64,000 bases of DNA from Candidatus Peregrinibacteria bacterium (lineage in GTDB: Bacteria > Patescibacteriota > Gracilibacteria > UBA1369 > LOWO2-01-FULL-3), in the NCBI GenBank assembly GCA_018654255.1, contig JABILX010000009.1, forward strand, positions 1-64,000, written 5' to 3'. This document shows, piece by piece, positions 43,893 through 56,692 of this stretch. The position numbers were made by a program, and so were the translations under genes. Within the stretch, counting starts at the first letter, position 1. Each line of letters opens with the position of its first letter. The notes below the pieces were generated by a model. That model made no database searches, had not been told where the DNA came from, and was given only the letters and a program-made list of their open reading frames with translations.

Positions 43893-46800
43893 TTAGAACG
43901 CAACTTTGAGTTGAGTGAGGTCAAGCAGTTCAGATAGTCCTGGAGGAGTGTTGAGGAGGAAGTTCTGGCTAAATTTGATAGTTACAGAACCTTGTTCCAT
44001 CGAAACACTTCCTGAGTATCTTCGTTTGCTGAATAGATCAGCTACGTTTCCGATCAGGATTCCGTTGAATGTTAATGGGTTGTATGAGAATCCTTGAGAA
44101 GTTACCCTGCCGTCATCTGTTCCATCTGTGTCGATTACGATGTATACACCGTCGAGGCGAGTAACTTCAGGGGCGATATTGATATCTCCGTCGATTACTA
44201 TGAAGGCTGCAGATGGTACGTTTTTTGGATTCAATGGTCCAAATACATCTAGAGGTTCATACGTGATGTTACCTGTTATATTCAGATCACCTCCTTTGAT
44301 TATGTATGTTTGAGCTGCAGGATCTGAGACGGTTAGACCTGGGATTGTTATATCTTTGTTTGTGTAACTGTAAATATTTGTGTTTGTAGATGGAGGGAAT
44401 TGATTTGTTATCAATGTCTCGTGCCATCTAGATAGATTTGAGATGTTATTATTGATCTGGTTAACGATGTATTCTTGCTGCCAACTTTCTGCTACTTCTG
44501 CTTTCATTTCACAGATTGTACTTGAGAAGTTTTTTAGTGGATTGTCGAATACTCCTGAACTTGCTCCTTCTACATTTGAATATTTACAAATGTCGTGTGT
44601 TGGAGTTGTTAGGTAAGCTTGGTCGCTTAAGTCTCCTGCTCCTGTTTTTGGAACTTCTTGTTCTTCGATCTCTTCGATTTGGATTGGAGTGATACTTGGA
44701 CCTTGGATGTTCTTTTGTTCTGAACAATAAGCTACATCGATACCTGAAGTAAGCTCTGATGAGAAGAATACGTCTCCACCTGCACGAGTTAGTATGAATG
44801 GGCAGATTGCGACTACTATTGCATCGTCGTCGTCTGAATCTACGTCGTCTCCTTCTAGATCATTGTCTTCGTATGTTTCGAATTCAATTTCGTTAGGGAA
44901 TTGCTCACCACATCCATCTGTTTCAGGATCTAGGTTTTGGCAAGTTTCTTGGTCTAGAGATGTTTCGTTCTTCATCTCGTAGTAGAGTTTGATTTTGTAT
45001 ACGCCTTCGATGTTATTGAATACTAATCCTTCGTCTGCGTCTGCAAATGCTTCTGCGAGATCATCTAGATCGTTTGCGTCTAGGTCTTTGTTTGTTACAC
45101 AGACTTCTGTTGTTTCTAGATCGTTTCCGTCGTATTCACAGATTTCTAGGTCATCATCGTCTTCGTTTAGGTAGGCTTCGTCTGGGTCGTTGTCGAAATA
45201 AACTTCGATCCAAAGGTTGTCTTCAAATACTAATTCACCGCCTTTTGAACCTTCCAAGACTCCGTCTTCAAATTCGGTTTCTTGAATCAAGGCAGATGAG
45301 ACTCCTTTGCCTTCACCAGGTTTGAAATCGATTCTGTATGTTACATATTTACTGTCGGTAGGGAGGATCGTTTCGCCGTTATCACCTTTGTCTTTTGCTG
45401 CTATGTTGATTAGATCATCCCAGTCTTCTGCAAAATCTGAATCTCCTGGGTCATCGTCGAAGTCGCCAGGTCTTACACGTTTCTTGATTGAAGCGTCGAT
45501 CTTTTCTGTGATTTCAGGACTGATTGTAGCTTCACATACTCCTGGATCAGTTCCATCTACTTTGATGAAAACAGTGATTCCTTCATATGGGTTTTTCAAG
45601 ATGTTTGTGTATGAAGTTGAAGTTTCGTGATTGAAGCTTGCGATTCCTTCTGGATTTACTGGGATTGTCCAATTGATTGTCCAGTCGTGATTTGCAGGAG
45701 TGCCTTCTACTTCTACCTCGAAGTCTTCCTCATCTTCCTCTGGATCTAAATTCCAAGATCCGTTTGGTTTGGTTATTTTTAATTCTTCACATTCTGGGTC
45801 TGGATCTGGGTCTGGATCTGGATCCGGATCTGGGTCTGGTTTGTCTGGTTTAGGCACATAAGTAAGTTGGCTAACACATGCTGTGTTTGCTCCTTCGTCG
45901 TTTGCTCTGACTTGTACGATCCAATCTGTTTGAAGTGTTGGGCCGAACATGTAGACTCCGTCGAATGCTTTTGATTCTGAAACTATCAAAGTTGTTTCAC
46001 CATTTTCATCAGCTGTATCGTCGAGGCTCAAGTGTGAGTCATTTGCGGTAGTCAGATTGAACCTGAAATCTCCATCATAGTCACCGAGGGTTCCTGTTAT
46101 ATAGAATCTTGTTGAATCAGGCATCGAAGCAGGTGGCCAAGATGGGTCTGCGTGTAATGCAATGTTTTGACATGCGTCTTTTGCTGGAACTATGATTGAT
46201 AGGTGTTTGATACATCCAGGTTCTGTCAAAGGATCTGAAGATGTAGCTTGTAGTGTGATTATGTTCGTATGTGTTCCAGGGGTTAGGTTTTGCATTGGGT
46301 AGAAGTACACTTTTGTTGTAACTGGAGTCGCGAGTTTTGTTGTAGACCAGTTTTCGATAGGTTCTGGTATTGTAAGTGGTAGTTCTACGATTGGGATTGT
46401 GATGTCTTGTTCTACTGCGAATACTCCATATTGAGAAGTTGTTTTGTAGTCAACTTTGGTTGGTTGTCCTTCTGGAATTTCGTATTCAAGACTTGATTCA
46501 AAAATGTAAATGTCTTCGCTTGGTAGGGAAGTCATAGTTGTTTCGTCTCCAAGTGGAAGACTTGATATGTATGAAGTTATGTTGTAGTGAAGTAATTTAC
46601 AGAATTGGTCTTCTTCAGGTTCTTCTTCTGGTGGACATGCAGGGAGTTGGAATTTACAAGCTGCTGTAACTTGAGCTTCTGTGTAAGTGGTGTCTCCAAA
46701 TGCTGATAAATATCCGAAGATGTTTGTGTTTTCTGGTGAAGTGTATTGAATTGCTGTTTCTTGAGTTTCAAGTGGATTTTCTCCTGAGAACAAACCTATT

Positions 46801-49190
46801 TCTGCTGGATCTGAATACCAATTGAAAGTGGTTGATTCTTGTGGAGCTATGAATGTTTCGCCTCCTACAGACATTGTTATGTTTGAAGTAGCGATTGTTA
46901 TCGGTGTGTCTTCTGCTTTTATACAAGCTTCGCCGTTCATGGTTGTATAATCTACGTCTAAACATACTGGCGGTTCTATAATTGGGAAGTCTTCTTCACA
47001 ATTTTGTTCGTCTGTACATTCTCCAGATACTTTGATTTTGTCTGCTCCTGCGGTTTTTGCGTAGAAGAATACTGATTCTCCTTGGTCTGCTTTTATTCCG
47101 TTTACAGATGCAGGTTCATCACAAGGTGGTTCTGGTGCAAGGTTTTCTGGGAGGTCTTGTGGACCAAAAAAGAATCCTTGGTCTCCGAGATCGAGTTTTT
47201 GGAAGTTATTTCCAGTATTTGCATCTACTGTTATTCCGATATCTCCTGCATCGATGAAGTCTGTATTTGGATTTATGATTGGTCCTAAATCTCCTGAATC
47301 TGCAAGTAATACGCTTGCTAGGAAATTTGAATTTTTGCTTGTTGATTTCGCAGGTAAATTTGCGATTATGTTTTTTATGAATAGTCCAATCTGATTCATC
47401 CCTTCGCATTCGATTTGGTCGAAAGGATTGTCGTATGCGTTTGGATATTTTTCCAAGAGGTCTTCTTCTGTTTCGAAGAACTCTCCGTAGTCTTCATCTG
47501 TGACTTCGTATAAGATTTCGTTGCTCCATGGGTTTCCGTTGTACGAAAGAGTTTCTGCACTAAATTCAGAAACACTTCCAACGGGGATCTGAGAAGGTCG
47601 TTCGACGCAGATGTCTGTACATTCATTGTCGCAGACATCGAGAGTTTCGATACAAGTGGTAGATCCAGTTGTAACTTCAGGTGCTACTCCGTCCGTAAGT
47701 GTGATTTTTTCAATGGTTACTCCTTGTTCGTTTGTGAAGTAAGCTGTCATATTTCCAAGTCCATAGAATTGTCCTTCGATTGTGTCTTGGTTTGATAGGA
47801 GAATTGTTACTGGGAAGTCTGTGAATTCGTTTGGGTTTATCAATGGAGTTGTGATTTTGAGTTTTGGTTGAACGTCTGGTCCTTGGAATCCGGCTGTGAA
47901 TGTGACGTATTGATTAGAAGTGCTTCCGTCGTCCATGTCCACGTTGACTTCGAAATTTGTGTATTTAGGGTCTAGGCTACAAGTGTCTTCTCCCTCTGTT
48001 TCTGTGAGGGTTAGGGATTCGCAGGCTTTTTCTGTGATTACTGGGTCTTCGGGTTCGCCTTCCACATTCACGACAGCTCTGAAGAAGACCCATCCTGAGT
48101 ATTTGAAACATCCAGGATGGTTGTTTACCTCTACCCATACTTTGTTGTTTCCGTCACTTTTCAATTCGAATCTTAAACTTTTGTTATATGTGTAGTCATC
48201 TAGTGATTCGTGTTGGCTCCATGGGATGTCTTCTTCTGTTGAGCCAACAGGACTTTCTATTGGGACCATTGCTGTGTAGACATCGGAAAATAATTTTGTG
48301 ATATGTTCTACTTCTTCACCTTCTTCATTAGTAGTTACGTTGTAACTTATCCATTCATTTGGTGTATCAACTGTCCCATCGTTATCATAGTCTGTCTCTA
48401 TGGTTCCATCTCCATCGTAGTCATAACCTAATTCGACTACTGCGACTGGATCTTCGCCTAATTCTAACGTTATAGTTTGTCCTGGTAATGGCTCTATTAC
48501 TACGCTGTCACTTGCTGTGTTTGCTGTAGAACCTACTGCTCCGTCAACGTCTTCAAAGAAAATGTAATCTCCATTTTCGTAATTAAGTGTATTTTCAAGC
48601 GTGTTTTTGTATGAATTGTCTTCTGAGTATATAAATCCAACTGGCCTGGTTGGATTTGATACATCTATTCCGATTCGTGTTTTGTATGCTGTAACTTGTT
48701 CAGCTGGAGTTAATAGCCCTTTACCGTCATATGGATCAGTACCATTGTTGTGAAATCTGATACCAAAGACTAGTCCGTCCCCGTCTTCAAACCCGTTAAA
48801 TCCTTCTAATCCCATCCATCCTTTTGTGTATAAAATTTCTCCGTCGTCGGATAGGACGAATTCATAATCTTCAGGTCCAACTTTTTCAGCAAATGCTACC
48901 CAAGCGAATTGTCTTTCATCAAAATAAGAACCTCCTTCAACCCCTTCTATGCCTTCGTCTGCTGGATTGTACTCCTGAGTGTTGTCATAAAAGAAATTGT
49001 TGTAACTTGGATATCCAAATCCTGGATGATCTTTTTCTCCACTGATATCTTCGTAATCCCTTGATGGGCTGAATGTTGCCTCAAAATCATTGGAATCTGA
49101 AATTGAGTAGTTTTCTGCTGCATAGGCTGGTGTTATTAGTGTTGATGTGAGTAAGCCTATTGCTACAATGTTTGATATTAACTTTTTCAT
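43893..49190 (-). CDS. giant secreted surface protein (1765 aa)
   Basis: A 1765-aa exported protein with a signal peptide (residues 1-24, ending TPAYA before AEN). The N-terminal 350 residues are acidic and hold a calcium-type Asp repeat (YDYDGDGTIETDYDNDGT, near 260). The rest is a chain of β-rich Ig-like segments with spaced cysteines (SYLP- and TDEDYGEFF-type regions), a PDPDPDPDPDP linker (about 1115-1135), then more β domains and a C-terminal part (about 1530-1765) with IKGGDLNITGNI, FIVIDGDINIAPEV and NTPPGLSELLDLTQ. From memory, this last module recurs in Patescibacteria surface proteins. VPKTG occurs internally but is not followed by a membrane helix. No anchor is visible. Likely cell-surface or secreted. 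Confidence 0.85.
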   Translation of the reverse strand: MKKLISNIVAIGLLTSTLITPAYAAENYSISDSNDFEATFSPSRDYEDISGEKDHPGFGYPSYNNFFYDNTQEYNPADEGIEGVEGGSYFDERQFAWVAFAEKVGPEDYEFVLSDDGEILYTKGWMGLEGFNGFEDGDGLVFGIRFHNNGTDPYDGKGLLTPAEQVTAYKTRIGIDVSNPTRPVGFIYSEDNSYKNTLENTLNYENGDYIFFEDVDGAVGSTANTASDSVVIEPLPGQTITLELGEDPVAVVELGYDYDGDGTIETDYDNDGTVDTPNEWISYNVTTNEEGEEVEHITKLFSDVYTAMVPIESPVGSTEEDIPWSQHESLDDYTYNKSLRFELKSDGNNKVWVEVNNHPGCFKYSGWVFFRAVVNVEGEPEDPVITEKACESLTLTETEGEDTCSLDPKYTNFEVNVDMDDGSTSNQYVTFTAGFQGPDVQPKLKITTPLINPNEFTDFPVTILLSNQDTIEGQFYGLGNMTAYFTNEQGVTIEKITLTDGVAPEVTTGSTTCIETLDVCDNECTDICVERPSQIPVGSVSEFSAETLSYNGNPWSNEILYEVTDEDYGEFFETEEDLLEKYPNAYDNPFDQIECEGMNQIGLFIKNIIANLPAKSTSKNSNFLASVLLADSGDLGPIINPNTDFIDAGDIGITVDANTGNNFQKLDLGDQGFFFGPQDLPENLAPEPPCDEPASVNGIKADQGESVFFYAKTAGADKIKVSGECTDEQNCEEDFPIIEPPVCLDVDYTTMNGEACIKAEDTPITIATSNITMSVGGETFIAPQESTTFNWYSDPAEIGLFSGENPLETQETAIQYTSPENTNIFGYLSAFGDTTYTEAQVTAACKFQLPACPPEEEPEEDQFCKLLHYNITSYISSLPLGDETTMTSLPSEDIYIFESSLEYEIPEGQPTKVDYKTTSQYGVFAVEQDITIPIVELPLTIPEPIENWSTTKLATPVTTKVYFYPMQNLTPGTHTNIITLQATSSDPLTEPGCIKHLSIIVPAKDACQNIALHADPSWPPASMPDSTRFYITGTLGDYDGDFRFNLTTANDSHLSLDDTADENGETTLIVSESKAFDGVYMFGPTLQTDWIVQVRANDEGANTACVSQLTYVPKPDKPDPDPDPDPDPDPDPECEELKITKPNGSWNLDPEEDEEDFEVEVEGTPANHDWTINWTIPVNPEGIASFNHETSTSYTNILKNPYEGITVFIKVDGTDPGVCEATISPEITEKIDASIKKRVRPGDFDDDPGDSDFAEDWDDLINIAAKDKGDNGETILPTDSKYVTYRIDFKPGEGKGVSSALIQETEFEDGVLEGSKGGELVFEDNLWIEVYFDNDPDEAYLNEDDDDLEICEYDGNDLETTEVCVTNKDLDANDLDDLAEAFADADEGLVFNNIEGVYKIKLYYEMKNETSLDQETCQNLDPETDGCGEQFPNEIEFETYEDNDLEGDDVDSDDDDAIVVAICPFILTRAGGDVFFSSELTSGIDVAYCSEQKNIQGPSITPIQIEEIEEQEVPKTGAGDLSDQAYLTTPTHDICKYSNVEGASSGVFDNPLKNFSSTICEMKAEVAESWQQEYIVNQINNNISNLSRWHETLITNQFPPSTNTNIYSYTNKDITIPGLTVSDPAAQTYIIKGGDLNITGNITYEPLDVFGPLNPKNVPSAAFIVIDGDINIAPEVTRLDGVYIVIDTDGTDDGRVTSQGFSYNPLTFNGILIGNVADLFSKRRYSGSVSMEQGSVTIKFSQNFLLNTPPGLSELLDLTQLKVAF

Positions 49191-49215: not shown

Positions 49216-52200
49216 TTATGGGAATAATTGAGATCCTCCATCACTATGAGCTGGTGCTTGGATTCCTCCGTCTCCTGCTGATGCTACGTCTCTGCTTGCG
49301 GTTTGAGCTTTGCTAGCATCAACTGGGCGTGTAGGTTGTGTTCTGGCTTCATTTTTTAGTGGTTCTGGATTCTCTTTCGGCGGTTTCTTCTTATCTTTGA
49401 ACCTAGCCCCAATTCCCAAACAGAAGTCTATGTATAGTTTCTGAATTTGTGGGTCTAGTTTTTCGAAGGTTTCGCTTTTAACTGTTATTGTTTCGCCGCC
49501 TTTCTCAATCTTTACTATTCCATCTTGGACTGCTTCGAATCCAGCGTTACCACAATCTGACCAAGAGATACTTCTTGTGGCTGATTTAAGATGGAATGAG
49601 AATTTAACGTCTTTATACTCTATTACAGTAGGTTCTCCTGCTAGCTGATTGCTTCTGAATTGTTCGCATAGTTTTTGGAATGCTCTAACTGCAGTTAGGT
49701 TTCCTGCGTAGTCGCCTATAATTTCTGGGTTTTTGAAGCATTTCATCAGTCTTTCGTAGTTTTCGTTTCCAAGTGCGAACACGATTGCTCCGGTGCTTCC
49801 GACCCTTCTTGCAAATTCTGATTCGAGGAATTGTTTGTATCCTGGGATTCCTGCTAATTTCTCAACTGGACTTGCTGTCTCAAGGAGGACCTTGCCCATG
49901 TCGGATTTTGTTTCGTACATTGTAGCTGTTCCCTTTAGGAATCCAGCAGGTCTGACTGTGCGTTCTGCGGTTGCTATTGATTGGAGTGTTCTTGCAACTG
50001 CTGGAGTGTGTTTACCTCCTTTTTCTGTTGGGGCCTTGTGTGTTCCGTATAGGATTGTTGATCCTCGCCATAGGCTTTCAACTTCTAGTGTAAGGAGTGG
50101 GTGATTGATCAAATTTTCTACTTTGGTGTTTAGTGTGACTTTTGGTACGTGTGATTTTATGTCTAGCACCATCTTTTTGGCCACTTTTTCACCTGTTAAT
50201 CCTTCTTTGACTTCGACTCCTCTGTCTTTCAATCGTTTGATAGCTGCATCGAATTGTGTCTCGAATGCTCCTAGGACGTAGTCTGCGTTATCGAATAATA
50301 TTTCTCGTGTTGAGTTGATGTATTTTACAAATTTTTCTTTTCTCGATTTGTCTTTTAGGAATTCTTTTGCGGCTCGTGGGCCCATTTCTGGGAGGGCTTT
50401 TAAGTGGCCTTCTTCAATCCCTGCATCTTTCAAGGCTTTTGAAGCTAAATCGATGAAGTATCTTCGAGTTAGGTATTGAGCTGCTAAGTTTCTTTCTAGA
50501 TCAGACAGGATTCCATCTTCACCAAGTAATTCTTTGCTGAATAATTTCTTTTCGTTTTCAGCAATGAAAGCAACTACACTTCCTGATTTGTCGATTCTTG
50601 CTGCTAGTTTCTTGTAGAAATCTTTGTCTTCAAATGTTTTGTCCATAAATTCTTTGATTGCTTGTTGAACGTTCTCTTCTGTTTGTTCGAATTTTGTTGC
50701 TGGGATTGAGTCTTTGCCTTCTTCGATCAAAGCTATCTTGTCTAGAAGATCTGCATCAGAAATAGAGGTGTCGATTTCTTTTGCTCGAGCTTTTTTGATT
50801 TCTCTTTGGATTTGTTCGTTTTCTATAGACTTCCATCCTTGCACATCGAAGACTGTCTTGCTTGGTCCAAGTTTGTCAGCGTTTTCACCTCTCTTGACTG
50901 CCCATTTGTATCCTGGGAGTTTCTCGAGATACGCTGCTTCGTGTTTTTGAATATAAAGTCTGTCTCGACCTCCTCTAACTGATTTTCTTTTTTTGATTGT
51001 TATTACGTCTTTTACAGAAGATCCGTGCATTGCTGTCACTGCTGGGAAGAAGAATCTCTCTCTTGTAATGATAAGATTTTCTAGGTTTCCTTCGAGGGCT
51101 AGGCCTTCTCCTTTTCTTGTGTGAACTGCTAGCTCTCCTGCCAATTCTGGGTCAGGATGGACTTCCATTTCTATTTTTCCTCCTAAACTTGGGTCGTCTG
51201 CGTCGAAAATGTGAAGGATTCTCTCTGTACCGACATTTAATTCTTCAACTCTCATGTTTATATCCTTGAGCTTTGAATTTCTGAAGTTTCTATCCGATAG
51301 GTTAGCAAAATCTAATTGGACTTCTTTAGGTTCGCCTATAAGTCTACCAATTCTTCCGTCTGCTGTGATGTATGCTTGTGACATGTTTTCGACTCCTATT
51401 CCTGTGAGTGTGTTGAATCCTAGCTTTTCTTCTAGTTTGTCTTCTACGGCCATTGCCGAGTTGATATTGAGCAGTATTGCTTCTGATTTAAGTAATGGGC
51501 GAGAGACTGTTCCTGCTGGAATTGAGAATTTGATGTATGCAACAGGGAACCCTATTACTATTTCTGATACAGGGATCCAATCTGTTTTTGCTAATGACTT
51601 TGAAGCTGATTTTGCGGCTGATGCCTGCATGTCTGTCAGCTGGAATTTGAGTAGAGAAATTATTATTTTGTTTGACATTTCTACTTTCCCACCAATCTTT
51701 GGGCTGTCGAATAATGGTGCGAATTGAGGAATGTTCTTTGCTTCTGCTATTACTGCCTCTTCTGCGCCTGCTTTTCCGGCATCGTATTCTCTTAATAGAG
51801 CTCGGATTGTTTCGAATCCTTTTTCTTTCACGGTTTCATCAAGTTTGAAGTCAACTGCTTTGCCATAGTTTCTGCCAACTCCGTATGCAAGTGTTGGGAG
51901 TGGCACGAATCCGAATGATGAATGGGATAGTAAACCCGCTATAGCAATTCCTTCGTATGCTGTGTTGCCATAGGCATGTCTGTTTTGTCCTCCTAGTAGG
52001 AGTCCGACTCCACCTGTGACGTTTGCGGCTACTGCTATTCCTAATGTGAATGTAGAATTTCCGGCTTTGAATGAGTAGGTGAGGCCTAGTCCTCCTCCAA
52101 CTTTTCCTTCTCCAGAAACGCCTGCACTTACTACGAGGCTAAAGCCTCCACCAAGATCGATAGGGCATCCTGCTCCAAATAATGCACTTGTATCTCCGCC

Positions 52201-55200
52201 ACCTGCAATTACAGCTATTCCTGCTTGGAATTTACTTATTGCGGTTTTTATTGTGCTCATTTCTGCTTCTGTTGAGATAGCCCATTCTATCCACTTTCTC
52301 ATGTCAGGATTTTTGGGCATTTTGATCGTATCCATCTGTTCTTCGTACTTTGTGTTGTATTCGATGAGGAGACCTAGTTGGAATGCGTCTTTTCGTTCTT
52401 TTAAGAGTTTTCCTACACCTAGGCCTCTTAATCCTAGTTGTCTTACTTCTAGTTCTTTAAGTCTTTTGTTGAATTCACTTCCAGGTTTGAGTTGTTCTGT
52501 GACTTCTTCTTGAGTTGGAGCTGCTCCTTTTTTGCCTCCTTTGCTTAGATACATTTGGAGGGCACCTAGTTTTATGAATTTATTTACTTCTTCTTCTAGT
52601 TTGGCGATGTTTAGAGTTTTGAATCCTCTTACTGTGTCTACGTCATAATATTCGCCGTGGTACATCAAGTAGTTGAATGCAGCGCCTGATGTCATTTGCT
52701 CTTCCAGGCTGCTTTTGTGTTTAAATAGCGTATTCCCATCGAGTTGTGTCATGTACGTGAAGTCTTTGATTCCTTTACATCCGTCGACAATTTTCTTAAC
52801 CCAATTTCTGCCATCTCCTCCGTTACAAAGATCTTTTAATTGTTTGATTGCTTTTGTTTGGCGATCGATGAGTGGGAGTTTGTTTCTTAGGATATCCATG
52901 TCTGTGTGTTTTACCCAGACTCGGGCACCGACTCCGTATTCATCCCATTCGTAGTGACCTTTGTAGTTCTCGAGAGTTCCATCTACTATAGATTGAACGT
53001 TATCGAGAATGTATAGAGGTTCTCTTTTAATTTTTCCTGGTAATTTTGTGAGTAGGATTTGATTTTCCGCATTGATTTTCAAGCATCCCTCTTTTACTAG
53101 TGTTTCTGGGCTTATTTTTAGGAAAAGTGCTTGAAGGAACATCTCATTGTCGATTTGATCGACGTATTTGATGTATTTGTTTTCTAGATCTCCTTCCATG
53201 ATTCTTTTTCTGAAGCCTGCTGTTACTTGATCTACTAGTTTTTGGTCGATACCAATTTCCAGATTTTCTGAATTGTGGAATTGAGAAACTTCACTGAGCT
53301 TGAATCTGTTTCCTGCTGGAAGTGAGAAGTCTGAATCCGTTTCTTCTCCTTGTCTCATCATCTTTAGGATCAAATTTTCCACAGTTTCTAGGGTGTCTTC
53401 TTTTTCAAGCTTTGTAAAATCTAGGTTTTCCAGACTTTCTAGAAGTTCGATTGTTGGCTCAACAATGCTTGAGAAGACTTTGTCCATGAATTCTGCATGG
53501 AATTCGTTTTTTTCTGCTGCAACTAGGCCTTTTTTTATAAATTCTGCTAAGTTGTCTGGGTCGAGCAGGTAGCCTAGTCCTACTGTTTTCCCCATGATTG
53601 TAGATAGGGTTGCTGCGTCTATTGCTGGGTCGAAAACACCTTGTAGATTTGGTTGTGCAAATTTTAAGACTTCTTTGTAGTCCACTCTACGGTTATCCCA
53701 TTCTGTGATCATTTTCACAGCTAGCTTTGGTATTTTATGTTTGGAACTTACATTGAATCTTTGGAGTGCTCTCATGACTGCTTTGTTTCCGTCAAATAGT
53801 GCCCAGTTGTCTAGCATTTCTCCTTCAAATAAATGTTTGTCTTTGAAGCCTTTGATTTTGTATGTTTTTGTGAGTTTACTGAGCATGTGTGCTCTGTTTT
53901 GTTTTTCTGCTAATTCTTCTGCTTGTGTTAGGCGAGCGCTTGTTTTGAGTGTTTTTCCTCTTTCTTTGAAGGTTTCGTAGTCTTTTTTACTTAGATAGTT
54001 CTGTAACATTCGACTTGTCTTGACCAACAGGGCGTCTTTGTTCTCTGGATTGTCGTATCCGTGTTCTTTTGTCCAAGTTACTTTCACTCCATGAAAATCA
54101 ACGGTGATGTTTTCGTAGAATTTACCTAGATCTTGTGACATTGATTTTCCGTGTTCGGAAATTGCTTGAGTGATTCCTTCGAGTGTTGAGTAAACTGGAT
54201 TATTTTCTTTTGCGTCAAGTTTTTCTTTTACCAAGCCCATGTGTAGGTCTAGGTTGTCTTGGACGTATTTTGGTCCTTGGCTCATCAAGAATCTGTCCAT
54301 TGCTTTTTCTTTCTCTGAAAGTTCTTTAACCATTGTGACTTCAGCTCCAGACATTTCTTCGATGTCTTGTTCTGTATTACGGACTATGTTTGCGTGTTTT
54401 CCGAGGATGACACTTTCTTTTTGACCTATTCCGTCATATTTGGATCCTTTTGGGTCTACTCTGAGACCAGAATCGATGTAATATTCATCTGTATCTGCGT
54501 ATCTCCAGATTGCTCTCATCTGTGGAGTTCGTTGTTTGATTTCTCCGTATATGAGTTTGGTTCCTTTTTTTGTTGTGATTGTTAGGGTTCTCAAATTTGT
54601 ATCTGGGTCTTTTACCAATTTGATTTCCTTCACGATTTTGTCTTGGATTTTTTTTACTGCGACTGTTGGGGTTTTTGGGCCTTTCTTGAGATGTTCTTCA
54701 ATAGGTTTAACAGCTGATTCAGCCAGTATTTCTTCTTCTACCATTCTTTCCTGTCTTTTTTCTTCAGCTTTTTCTGTAGCTCTTTTTAGTGCTTGTGAAT
54801 CAACTTGTTTTTTTAATTCTGGTTCTGCAGGAGTGTTGTTTGCGTTGAAGAGAGTTCCTGTATGATCTGTGTATAGGGCTTTCTCCTCTACTTTTGCTAC
54901 GAATTCTTTGCCAGACATTGATGCTAATGATATTGGTTCTTCTTTCTCATATGTGGACTCTACTAATTCTTTTATTTTTGTGAATTTTGGTGTTGTGAAT
55001 TTTTTTGAAGGTTTTCCTTTTACTGTGTGTCCTGGTTTTGAAACTGGGTTAGGTCCGAGGACTTTGTAATTATATGTTCCATTTTCGTAGGATAGTATGA
55101 TTTTTGTTGTTTTCCCTGGGGGATCTATATTTCCGATGATGATTGTGTATTGTTCCGGATTTTCTCCTACAATTAATTCTTTGTGCTCTTTTTTCATTTG

Positions 55201-55887
55201 TGCTGGATCGAGGTTTATTGGCGGGTTTATTAATTGGAGCCTGTATGCTTCAACTTTCTTCCTCATTTCCAAGATGTTCTTTTTTTCATCATCTAATCCT
55301 TGCCTTTGTTCGCGAATCTTTCTCAAAAAGATTTCACGTTTTGATTCTAAATCGGTTCTTTTTTTAGATTTTACTTTGAATTGGCCGATTTCTTTTGGAG
55401 TTCCGTCTTTATCTATCAAAGCTATTTGGATGAAATTTTTGTCTTGTGCTTTGTGGAAGACTATTCCTTTAAACTTTTCGTCTTCTTCTTGGATTTTCTT
55501 TGTCATGGTATCTTCTGAACCCGCTGCTGGATTTTCATGGAGTGCTTCTATGAAATCAAGGTGTTGTAGGTCTTGAGCCATGCTGTCTGATGGATGAATC
55601 ATTTTTGCCATTTGGCCGCACATTTGGTCGACTTCTGTGAGTCCTAGGACTCTTTTGTTGTTAGGGTCAATATGCAAATCTGCGGATCCTGCGAACTTTT
55701 CTTTCATAATTCTTTCAGATTCCTTTTTGCTCATCATTTTAGCGACTGTATCTAGTCGTTTTATTTTCTCGTCAATTTTTTCACCACTTTCTACGTTGAA
55801 ATGTGGCATCTCTTTCATCTCTGTAGAGTTGACAAAAACAAGCCGTGGCTCTTTGAACAGAGAATGGTTTGTGTTGGAATTTTTCAT
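49216..55887 (-). CDS. giant non-secreted-type protein with glycine-rich β core (2223 aa)
   Basis: A 2223-aa protein, the largest here, 25 bases upstream of the 1765-aa gene. No signal peptide is seen. Residues 1-420 are highly charged, with coiled-coil stretches; the middle has many helical, Lys/Glu-rich regions. Residues about 1215-1345 are a Gly-rich, strand-like stretch (AVIAGGGDTSALFGAG; GGGFSLVVSAGVSGEGKVG; TFTLGIAVAANVTGGVGLLL; FGFVPLPTLAYGVGRN) with alternating hydrophobic residues, resembling a β-barrel or β-sheet insert. The C-terminus is a Pro/Ala/Gly-rich tail. I do not recognise a family. Expressed from a strong promoter with the secreted protein, so a common surface or secretion process is likely. 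Confidence 0.8.
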   Translation of the reverse strand: MKNSNTNHSLFKEPRLVFVNSTEMKEMPHFNVESGEKIDEKIKRLDTVAKMMSKKESERIMKEKFAGSADLHIDPNNKRVLGLTEVDQMCGQMAKMIHPSDSMAQDLQHLDFIEALHENPAAGSEDTMTKKIQEEDEKFKGIVFHKAQDKNFIQIALIDKDGTPKEIGQFKVKSKKRTDLESKREIFLRKIREQRQGLDDEKKNILEMRKKVEAYRLQLINPPINLDPAQMKKEHKELIVGENPEQYTIIIGNIDPPGKTTKIILSYENGTYNYKVLGPNPVSKPGHTVKGKPSKKFTTPKFTKIKELVESTYEKEEPISLASMSGKEFVAKVEEKALYTDHTGTLFNANNTPAEPELKKQVDSQALKRATEKAEEKRQERMVEEEILAESAVKPIEEHLKKGPKTPTVAVKKIQDKIVKEIKLVKDPDTNLRTLTITTKKGTKLIYGEIKQRTPQMRAIWRYADTDEYYIDSGLRVDPKGSKYDGIGQKESVILGKHANIVRNTEQDIEEMSGAEVTMVKELSEKEKAMDRFLMSQGPKYVQDNLDLHMGLVKEKLDAKENNPVYSTLEGITQAISEHGKSMSQDLGKFYENITVDFHGVKVTWTKEHGYDNPENKDALLVKTSRMLQNYLSKKDYETFKERGKTLKTSARLTQAEELAEKQNRAHMLSKLTKTYKIKGFKDKHLFEGEMLDNWALFDGNKAVMRALQRFNVSSKHKIPKLAVKMITEWDNRRVDYKEVLKFAQPNLQGVFDPAIDAATLSTIMGKTVGLGYLLDPDNLAEFIKKGLVAAEKNEFHAEFMDKVFSSIVEPTIELLESLENLDFTKLEKEDTLETVENLILKMMRQGEETDSDFSLPAGNRFKLSEVSQFHNSENLEIGIDQKLVDQVTAGFRKRIMEGDLENKYIKYVDQIDNEMFLQALFLKISPETLVKEGCLKINAENQILLTKLPGKIKREPLYILDNVQSIVDGTLENYKGHYEWDEYGVGARVWVKHTDMDILRNKLPLIDRQTKAIKQLKDLCNGGDGRNWVKKIVDGCKGIKDFTYMTQLDGNTLFKHKSSLEEQMTSGAAFNYLMYHGEYYDVDTVRGFKTLNIAKLEEEVNKFIKLGALQMYLSKGGKKGAAPTQEEVTEQLKPGSEFNKRLKELEVRQLGLRGLGVGKLLKERKDAFQLGLLIEYNTKYEEQMDTIKMPKNPDMRKWIEWAISTEAEMSTIKTAISKFQAGIAVIAGGGDTSALFGAGCPIDLGGGFSLVVSAGVSGEGKVGGGLGLTYSFKAGNSTFTLGIAVAANVTGGVGLLLGGQNRHAYGNTAYEGIAIAGLLSHSSFGFVPLPTLAYGVGRNYGKAVDFKLDETVKEKGFETIRALLREYDAGKAGAEEAVIAEAKNIPQFAPLFDSPKIGGKVEMSNKIIISLLKFQLTDMQASAAKSASKSLAKTDWIPVSEIVIGFPVAYIKFSIPAGTVSRPLLKSEAILLNINSAMAVEDKLEEKLGFNTLTGIGVENMSQAYITADGRIGRLIGEPKEVQLDFANLSDRNFRNSKLKDINMRVEELNVGTERILHIFDADDPSLGGKIEMEVHPDPELAGELAVHTRKGEGLALEGNLENLIITRERFFFPAVTAMHGSSVKDVITIKKRKSVRGGRDRLYIQKHEAAYLEKLPGYKWAVKRGENADKLGPSKTVFDVQGWKSIENEQIQREIKKARAKEIDTSISDADLLDKIALIEEGKDSIPATKFEQTEENVQQAIKEFMDKTFEDKDFYKKLAARIDKSGSVVAFIAENEKKLFSKELLGEDGILSDLERNLAAQYLTRRYFIDLASKALKDAGIEEGHLKALPEMGPRAAKEFLKDKSRKEKFVKYINSTREILFDNADYVLGAFETQFDAAIKRLKDRGVEVKEGLTGEKVAKKMVLDIKSHVPKVTLNTKVENLINHPLLTLEVESLWRGSTILYGTHKAPTEKGGKHTPAVARTLQSIATAERTVRPAGFLKGTATMYETKSDMGKVLLETASPVEKLAGIPGYKQFLESEFARRVGSTGAIVFALGNENYERLMKCFKNPEIIGDYAGNLTAVRAFQKLCEQFRSNQLAGEPTVIEYKDVKFSFHLKSATRSISWSDCGNAGFEAVQDGIVKIEKGGETITVKSETFEKLDPQIQKLYIDFCLGIGARFKDKKKPPKENPEPLKNEARTQPTRPVDASKAQTASRDVASAGDGGIQAPAHSDGGSQLFP

Positions 55888-56011: not shown

Positions 56012-56692
56012 ATGATAATTATCAACTTCAAAGACTACGATGAATCGACTGGCGAGAACGCTGTTTCTTTGGCGAAAGAGTTTGAAAAAGTTTTCAATGA
56101 AACGGGTGTTCCTATCGTCGTTGTTGTGCATCCTTTTGATCTTCGAAATGTTGTTGAAGCTTGTCCTAATCTTGCGGTGTATTGTCAGACTGCAGATGGT
56201 TATACGTTGGATGAAAGTCACACCAAAAAGAAGACTCAAACTGGTCGAATTACTCCTATTATGTTGAAAAAAACGGGTGCTACTGGAGTCATTTTAAATC
56301 ATGCTGAAAACCCTCTCGTAGATGATGAAATTGAACGAATTGTGAATGATATGAATGCTGATTTTCCTGAGGCTCAAATCGTGGTTTGTGCAGGGAGTTC
56401 AGAGCGTGCGGAAGCTGTTTCGAAACGGGTAGAAGTGGCCTATATTGCTATTGAACCGCCAGATCTAATTGGAGGTGATATTTCGGTAACAACCAGGCCT
56501 GAAATTATAGAGGAAGCTGTTGAAAAAGTGGGGGACAATGTGTTGGTTGGAGCTGGGGTGAAGACAGCGGAAGATATTACAAAAGCAAAGGAGCTTGGAG
56601 CCAAGGGGGTGTTGCTTGCTTCGGGGGTTATAAAACCTAAGGATGGGGGAACTCCTTATGAGTCATTAATTGCTCTTACAAAAGCATTCTAA
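56012..56692 (+). CDS. tpiA: triosephosphate isomerase, archaeal type
   Basis: Interconverts dihydroxyacetone phosphate and glyceraldehyde 3-phosphate. The 226 aa are the short archaeal form; usual bacterial enzymes have about 250. Catalytic residues are in INFKDY (Lys), ILNHAENPL (His) and IEPPDLIGG (Glu), with phosphate-binding GAGVKTAEDI and GVLLASGVIK. The EPPDLIG and NHAENP forms are typical of archaeal sequences. The start at ATG 56012 gives the family N-terminus; the open frame continues upstream without similarity. It heads the plus-strand unit that runs to rpoD. Confidence 0.95.
   Translation: MIIINFKDYDESTGENAVSLAKEFEKVFNETGVPIVVVVHPFDLRNVVEACPNLAVYCQTADGYTLDESHTKKKTQTGRITPIMLKKTGATGVILNHAENPLVDDEIERIVNDMNADFPEAQIVVCAGSSERAEAVSKRVEVAYIAIEPPDLIGGDISVTTRPEIIEEAVEKVGDNVLVGAGVKTAEDITKAKELGAKGVLLASGVIKPKDGGTPYESLIALTKAF

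Follow-up and report, generated by a model that had tools for sequence, protein, structure and literature searches.

A conserved two-gene locus of Candidatus Peregrinibacteria pairs a giant leaderless protein with a predicted beta-barrel core and a giant surface protein

Membrane beta-barrels are tied to the outer membranes of bacteria, mitochondria and plastids and to insertases of the Omp85 type. Among the closest described systems, the 12-stranded porins of the KdgM/NanC type come with signal peptides, BAM and an outer membrane. Intimin/invasin and the classical autotransporters combine a barrel with very large accessory regions; they have a signal peptide, the barrel lies at one terminus, and the passenger is on the same chain. 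Cell-cell interaction in the CPR is poorly understood. CPR bacteria have been proposed to lack an outer membrane and PilQ (PMC6744442), and in a related CPR lineage, Vampirococcus lugosii, several very large proteins have been predicted at the membrane (PMC8080830). No paper combining Peregrinibacteria with a beta-barrel was found in the literature searched.

Here, we analysed a 64,000-nucleotide stretch of DNA from Candidatus Peregrinibacteria (positions 1 to 64,000 of contig JABILX010000009.1, GCA_018654255.1), hereafter the window. It contains two very large adjacent genes between tpiA and holA, with the following features:

56012 to 56692, plus strand: tpiA (triosephosphate isomerase), the upstream flank (Pfam TIM, E 8.9e-21)
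49216 to 55887, minus strand: giant leaderless protein of 2223 aa; an ORF with an ATG start and order-wide homologs in the same gene order
55834 to 55860, minus strand: N-terminal motif LFKEPRLVF at residues 10-18; in relatives a charged linker comes next
52288 to 55887, minus strand: N-terminal part of the giant, residues 1-1200, charged and fast evolving, with low column conservation and no family match
51853 to 52245, minus strand: Gly-rich beta-meander of residues 1215-1345, predicted to form the first set of barrel strands (composition, alternation, strands in both models, structural matches)
51577 to 51852, minus strand: predicted helical insert, residues 1346-1437 (homolog lengths, helices in the homolog model)
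51490 to 51576, minus strand: predicted second strand set of about three strands, residues 1438-1466 (both models; in the structurally matched range)
50908 to 51165, minus strand: residues 1575-1660, the family's best conserved block (ITRERF ... SSxxDxITI), from column conservation
49468 to 49962, minus strand: conserved C-terminal domain with a near-invariant CxN, residues 1976-2140 (conservation; homolog pLDDT about 70-90)
49399 to 49443, minus strand: C-terminal amphipathic strand KLYIDFCLGIGARF, residues 2149-2163 (alternation; type conserved in relatives)
43893 to 49190, minus strand: partner, a surface protein of 1765 aa with a signal peptide and a strongly conserved C-terminal part of about 320 aa
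42796 to 43791, minus strand: holA (DNA polymerase III delta), the downstream flank (Pfam DNA_pol3_delta)

The chain of the giant is coding, as homologs of similar length, free of internal stops, occur in the same gene order. A preliminary description of this DNA, made from its letters alone, had proposed a leaderless protein of 2223 aa, and this was borne out: the ORF has an ATG start, its N-terminus has no hydrophobic stretch, and the top hydrophobic 19-mers fall in the Gly-rich core and at about residues 1438-1461. The N-terminal Sec signal peptide that goes with porins is absent from the giant, and no typical signal peptide was seen by eye in those N-termini of relatives that were read. 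Sequence searches against Pfam, NCBIfam, PHROGs and PDB gave no significant match to a known domain, in keeping with the earlier statement that no domain could be recognised. A known family spanning the whole chain, which the preliminary description had regarded as one possible outcome, was rejected because these searches were empty or insignificant, and a viral structure library gave no match at E <= 0.001.

The Gly-rich region (residues 1215-1345) differs clearly in composition from the whole chain, with 23% versus 8% Gly and 8% versus 30% D/E/K/R. In 20 of 20 homologs its hydrophobic alternation exceeded that of shuffled versions (z 1.1-3.8, combined 9.7, the homologs not being independent), and the Gly content of the core was kept in all 20 as well; the core is conserved in the form of long strands with dyad alternation. 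The helical insert measured 82-98 aa (about 90) in every homolog measured.

The giant family (about 1,500-3,300 aa, leaderless) belongs to one GTDB order (Candidatus Peregrinibacteria), whose members are tiny and apparently have a single membrane. A search with the single sequence detected it in 26 of 99 related genomes. The profile search of Patescibacteria genomes that had been proposed in the preliminary description found it in 58 of the 89 genomes of the order; in the 287-genome sample of the phylum every hit fell within the order. The early suggestion of a phylum-specific protein is thus corrected, the family being specific to the order and not spread through the phylum. A broad contig scan with a six-row alignment as query gave named relatives that were mostly records of Candidatus Peregrinibacteria, Peribacteria, Gracilibacteria or Patescibacteria, three being labelled Nitrospirae/Nitrospirota. 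In six genomes of the order in which the first profile gave no hit, a giant of 1569-3038 aa was found at the corresponding position, some of these being cut by contig or stretch ends. Each of the six, taken singly, matches the family by HHalign (probability 87-99.6%, the weaker matches depending on a block of about 120-140 columns). The three from family f4 reach 99.8% when combined, and a wider profile matches one of the six.

Intact loci have the order tpiA (divergent), giant, partner and holA in families including f1, f2, f4, f8, f10 and f13, and synteny reaches outwards beyond these four genes. In the window 25 bp separate the stop of the giant from the start of the partner, and gaps are short in most loci. 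The partner was found in 67 of 88 genomes of the order. Matches to the two proteins are associated across these 88 genomes (Fisher p 0.008), a value that serves as a guide only, since the genomes share ancestry and the profile misses some of the giants. In five genomes (G031, G053, G060, G067 and G076) tpiA lies beside holA with small other ORFs or nothing in between, and both giants are absent. This joint absence with retained flanks is the strongest evidence that giant and partner form one unit. The conserved pairing with the 1765-aa protein that had been suspected from the window alone is therefore upheld, as a two-gene unit with a fixed order in many families.

Several small genes were also observed at these sites. 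Two of the empty-site genomes have, in place of the giants, a protein of about 470 aa with an N-terminal membrane segment (L181 1787-3202 and L182 2357-3760). Some families have a small extra gene upstream of the giant or between both giants. In family f2 it encodes 155-190 aa and lies ahead of the giant (L049 3791-4351, L050 17258-17725, L085 7753-8247, L090 14253-14825). In family f8 a third gene for 163-178 aa lies between the giants (L077 6721-7257, L080 7101-7637, L084 7007-7498, L096 10110-10640); its product has an N-terminal membrane segment and a cohesin-like domain, with a Pfam Cohesin hit of E 0.0018 in one case, below the cut-off.

The partner starts with a typical signal peptide. 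On its own, its C-terminal domain is found in further families of the class as well, beside other genes. The same architecture was looked for in the sister families that have this domain and was rejected, as the inspected neighbours are not such giants. In sister family f21 (L139, L141-L143 and L146), a surface giant with this domain adjoins a putative VirB4/TraG-type ATPase, assigned by eye. Matches to the domain in G396, G408, G417, G430 and G389 contain many in-frame TGA codons, as expected if TGA is recoded in these genomes of the class. In one genome of the order (G071 C64, L084 7532-12799) the partner gene appears to be split into three ORFs, possibly by a frameshift or an assembly error, and the match has one internal TAA. 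V. lugosii belongs to a related CPR lineage and its predicted membrane proteins are likewise very large; the partner's C-terminal domain is spread more widely in the class, whereas the leaderless giant was found in the order only.

To characterize the Gly-rich core, AlphaFold2 models of the window protein (residues 1001-2190) and of a homolog (L051, 21% identical over the alignment) were obtained from shallow alignments of 13 rows. The window protein model has a mean pLDDT of 56, with 23-40 over the Gly-rich region, where seven to eight consecutive strands are drawn; transmembrane barrels are its top structural matches, with Z no higher than 7.4, a value that falls into the background of the tool (7-8). 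The L051 model has eight strands (block means of pLDDT mostly 54-72), a helical insert (helices 59-84) and then three strands (41-50). When it was compared with solved structures, 50 of 50 among the matches listed were transmembrane beta-barrels or complexes holding one, and 43 chains had Z >= 8. The best match is the 12-stranded porin KdgM (Z 13.2, 147 of 171 residues, 3.4 A). These Z scores are a second look at candidates proposed by Foldseek, which by itself gave a best E of 0.063, not significant. The comparisons barely reach the C-terminal half of the giant, so that the lack of a match there is uninformative. The C-terminal amphipathic strand, which is followed by a low-complexity tail, is part of the barrel in one model only, and the two models disagree on barrel closure by a C-terminal strand. 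In the predicted strands of L051 the hydrophobic face is 6% charged versus 15% for the Gly/polar face (13 rows).

Judging from these models, the Gly-rich core and the second strand set likely form a barrel fold. Alternation, the homolog model and its structural matches thus support the earlier proposal that residues of about 1215-1345 form barrel-like strands. The limits given there did not hold, as the predicted barrel runs on to about 1466 with the helical insert of about 90 aa. The opposite outcome, a soluble globular insert, was not obtained in the predictions, and the barrel may insert into a membrane. It is improbable that the barrel is an artefact and that the region forms another beta structure, such as a sheet, a solenoid or a fibre-like fold, with the alternating Gly-rich sequence favouring a drawn barrel. 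The shallow alignments, the low to moderate confidence and the background-level matches of the window protein model would fit such an artefact. On the other hand, a homolog of such low identity exceeds the background with barrels only among the matches listed. Searches with the Gly-rich alignment also lean towards barrels, all of them insignificantly (designed barrel TMB2.3, E 0.062; YadA_anchor, 0.021; OMP_b-brl, 0.025).

Compared with known systems, the L051 core resembles KdgM/NanC porins (NanC, Z 11.4) in its predicted strand meander and barrel size, with a sequence identity of only 7-8%. In contrast to these porins, the barrel is predicted here inside a giant protein that has no leader, and no Omp85 could be detected in the order. 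The barrels of invasin (Z 11.4), intimin (11.2) and NalP (10.4) also match L051, and such proteins, like the giant as predicted, have a barrel accompanied by very large accessory regions. However, the giant lacks a signal peptide, there is no BAM here, the barrel is predicted at an internal position (about residues 1215-1466 of 2223) and, unlike the passenger of autotransporters, the large surface protein is encoded by a separate gene.

The outer-membrane families searched for were missing from the order. Omp85 (PF01103) was found in 0 of 59 genomes, and POTRA, secretin and LptD each in 0 of 40, while 7, 8, 6 and 2 of 14 control genomes, respectively, were positive. With no signal peptide and none of these families, a porin-like barrel in this order would be without a known assembly route or membrane. 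One alternative, somewhat unlikely in itself, is that the giant is a cytoplasmic scaffold, a role that the preliminary description had suggested beside that of a secretion machine part. Its Gly-rich region would then fold as a barrel or sheet that is soluble and serves assembly or the binding of lipid or of partner chains, while the protein, kept on the cytoplasmic side, would help to make or export its surface partner. The missing assembly families, the lack of a signal peptide, the high charge outside the core and the long helical parts of the models are all in line with this. However, the L051 model matches membrane barrels and not soluble ones, and the barrel size and polar, Gly-rich face would suit a membrane barrel better.

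We tentatively prefer, at somewhat less than an even chance, that the giant acts together with the surface partner as a pore or anchor associated with the envelope; the scaffold ranks close behind. An envelope-associated pore or anchor is favoured by the fixed and widespread locus, the joint absence, the conserved alternation and Gly content, the hydrophobic strand face, the L051 matches, the weak sequence leads to barrels, the signal peptide of the partner and the membrane-segment protein between the giants in family f8. Strand pLDDT that is moderate in L051 and poor in the window protein, the insignificant Foldseek result and the lack of a known route or membrane weigh against it.

Many giants start with a short stretch and a motif like R-[LF]-V-[FY], followed by a linker rich in Glu, Pro, Ser and Lys. 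The strict form R[FLIMVP][VIL][FYWH] occurs within the first 45 aa of 17 of 36 giants versus 28 of 1024 other ORFs of the sampled genome stretches, an enrichment that is a guide only, given that the giants are relatives of one another and that the motif was picked after their sequences had been viewed. The motif may act in docking or targeting. A role as a general export signal was rejected and is not claimed, because outside the giants only three ORFs fit motif plus linker, a rate close to that of internal control windows (13/5663). The small gene directly upstream of the L090 giant has the same N-terminal motif, and a similar R-[FL]-[VI]-x motif with a disordered-looking linker was seen in other leaderless proteins of the class (L141 2644-5439 and 7674-10010; L101 16618-17493).

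The motif also bears on the possibility, which we consider distinctly improbable, that the giant is an exported pore former or delivery device. It would then exit by a route other than Sec, for which the motif may be the mark, and its barrel would insert into the membrane of a host or neighbour while the surface partner provides contact. Conservation of the motif amid variable N-termini, the absence of an evident outer membrane of its own in the order and the predatory habit of a related CPR lineage with very large surface proteins (PMC8080830) are consistent with this. However, the analysis identified no export machine, other sampled ORFs show no evident enrichment of the motif, and the fixed vertical inheritance suits a core function equally well.

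Taken as an envelope-associated pore or anchor, the giant would belong to an envelope locus of two genes that is specific to the order. From the upstream gene, a giant lacking a Sec signal would be made in the cytoplasm. Its core would be a porin-like barrel of about 11-12 strands, in which a helical insert, possibly a plug or gate, separates strand 8 from strand 9, and a mixed alpha/beta C-terminal half would follow the barrel. The downstream gene would produce a giant surface protein exported by Sec. Their joint role in the lifestyle of these bacteria might be, for example, attachment to, or exchange with, other cells. It is unlikely, though conceivable, that a single-membrane CPR order has, within a giant leaderless protein, a porin-like barrel that needs neither Sec signal nor BAM and serves, together with the giant surface protein, as pore or anchor either in the membrane of the bacterium itself or in that of a neighbour. 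The fixed two-gene locus and its natural empty sites make the question of the barrel testable by comparison. If an order in which neither an outer membrane nor Omp85-type insertases can be detected has kept a porin-like barrel, this would either break the rule that ties such barrels to both or point to an envelope layer or a delivery route not yet recognised in the CPR.
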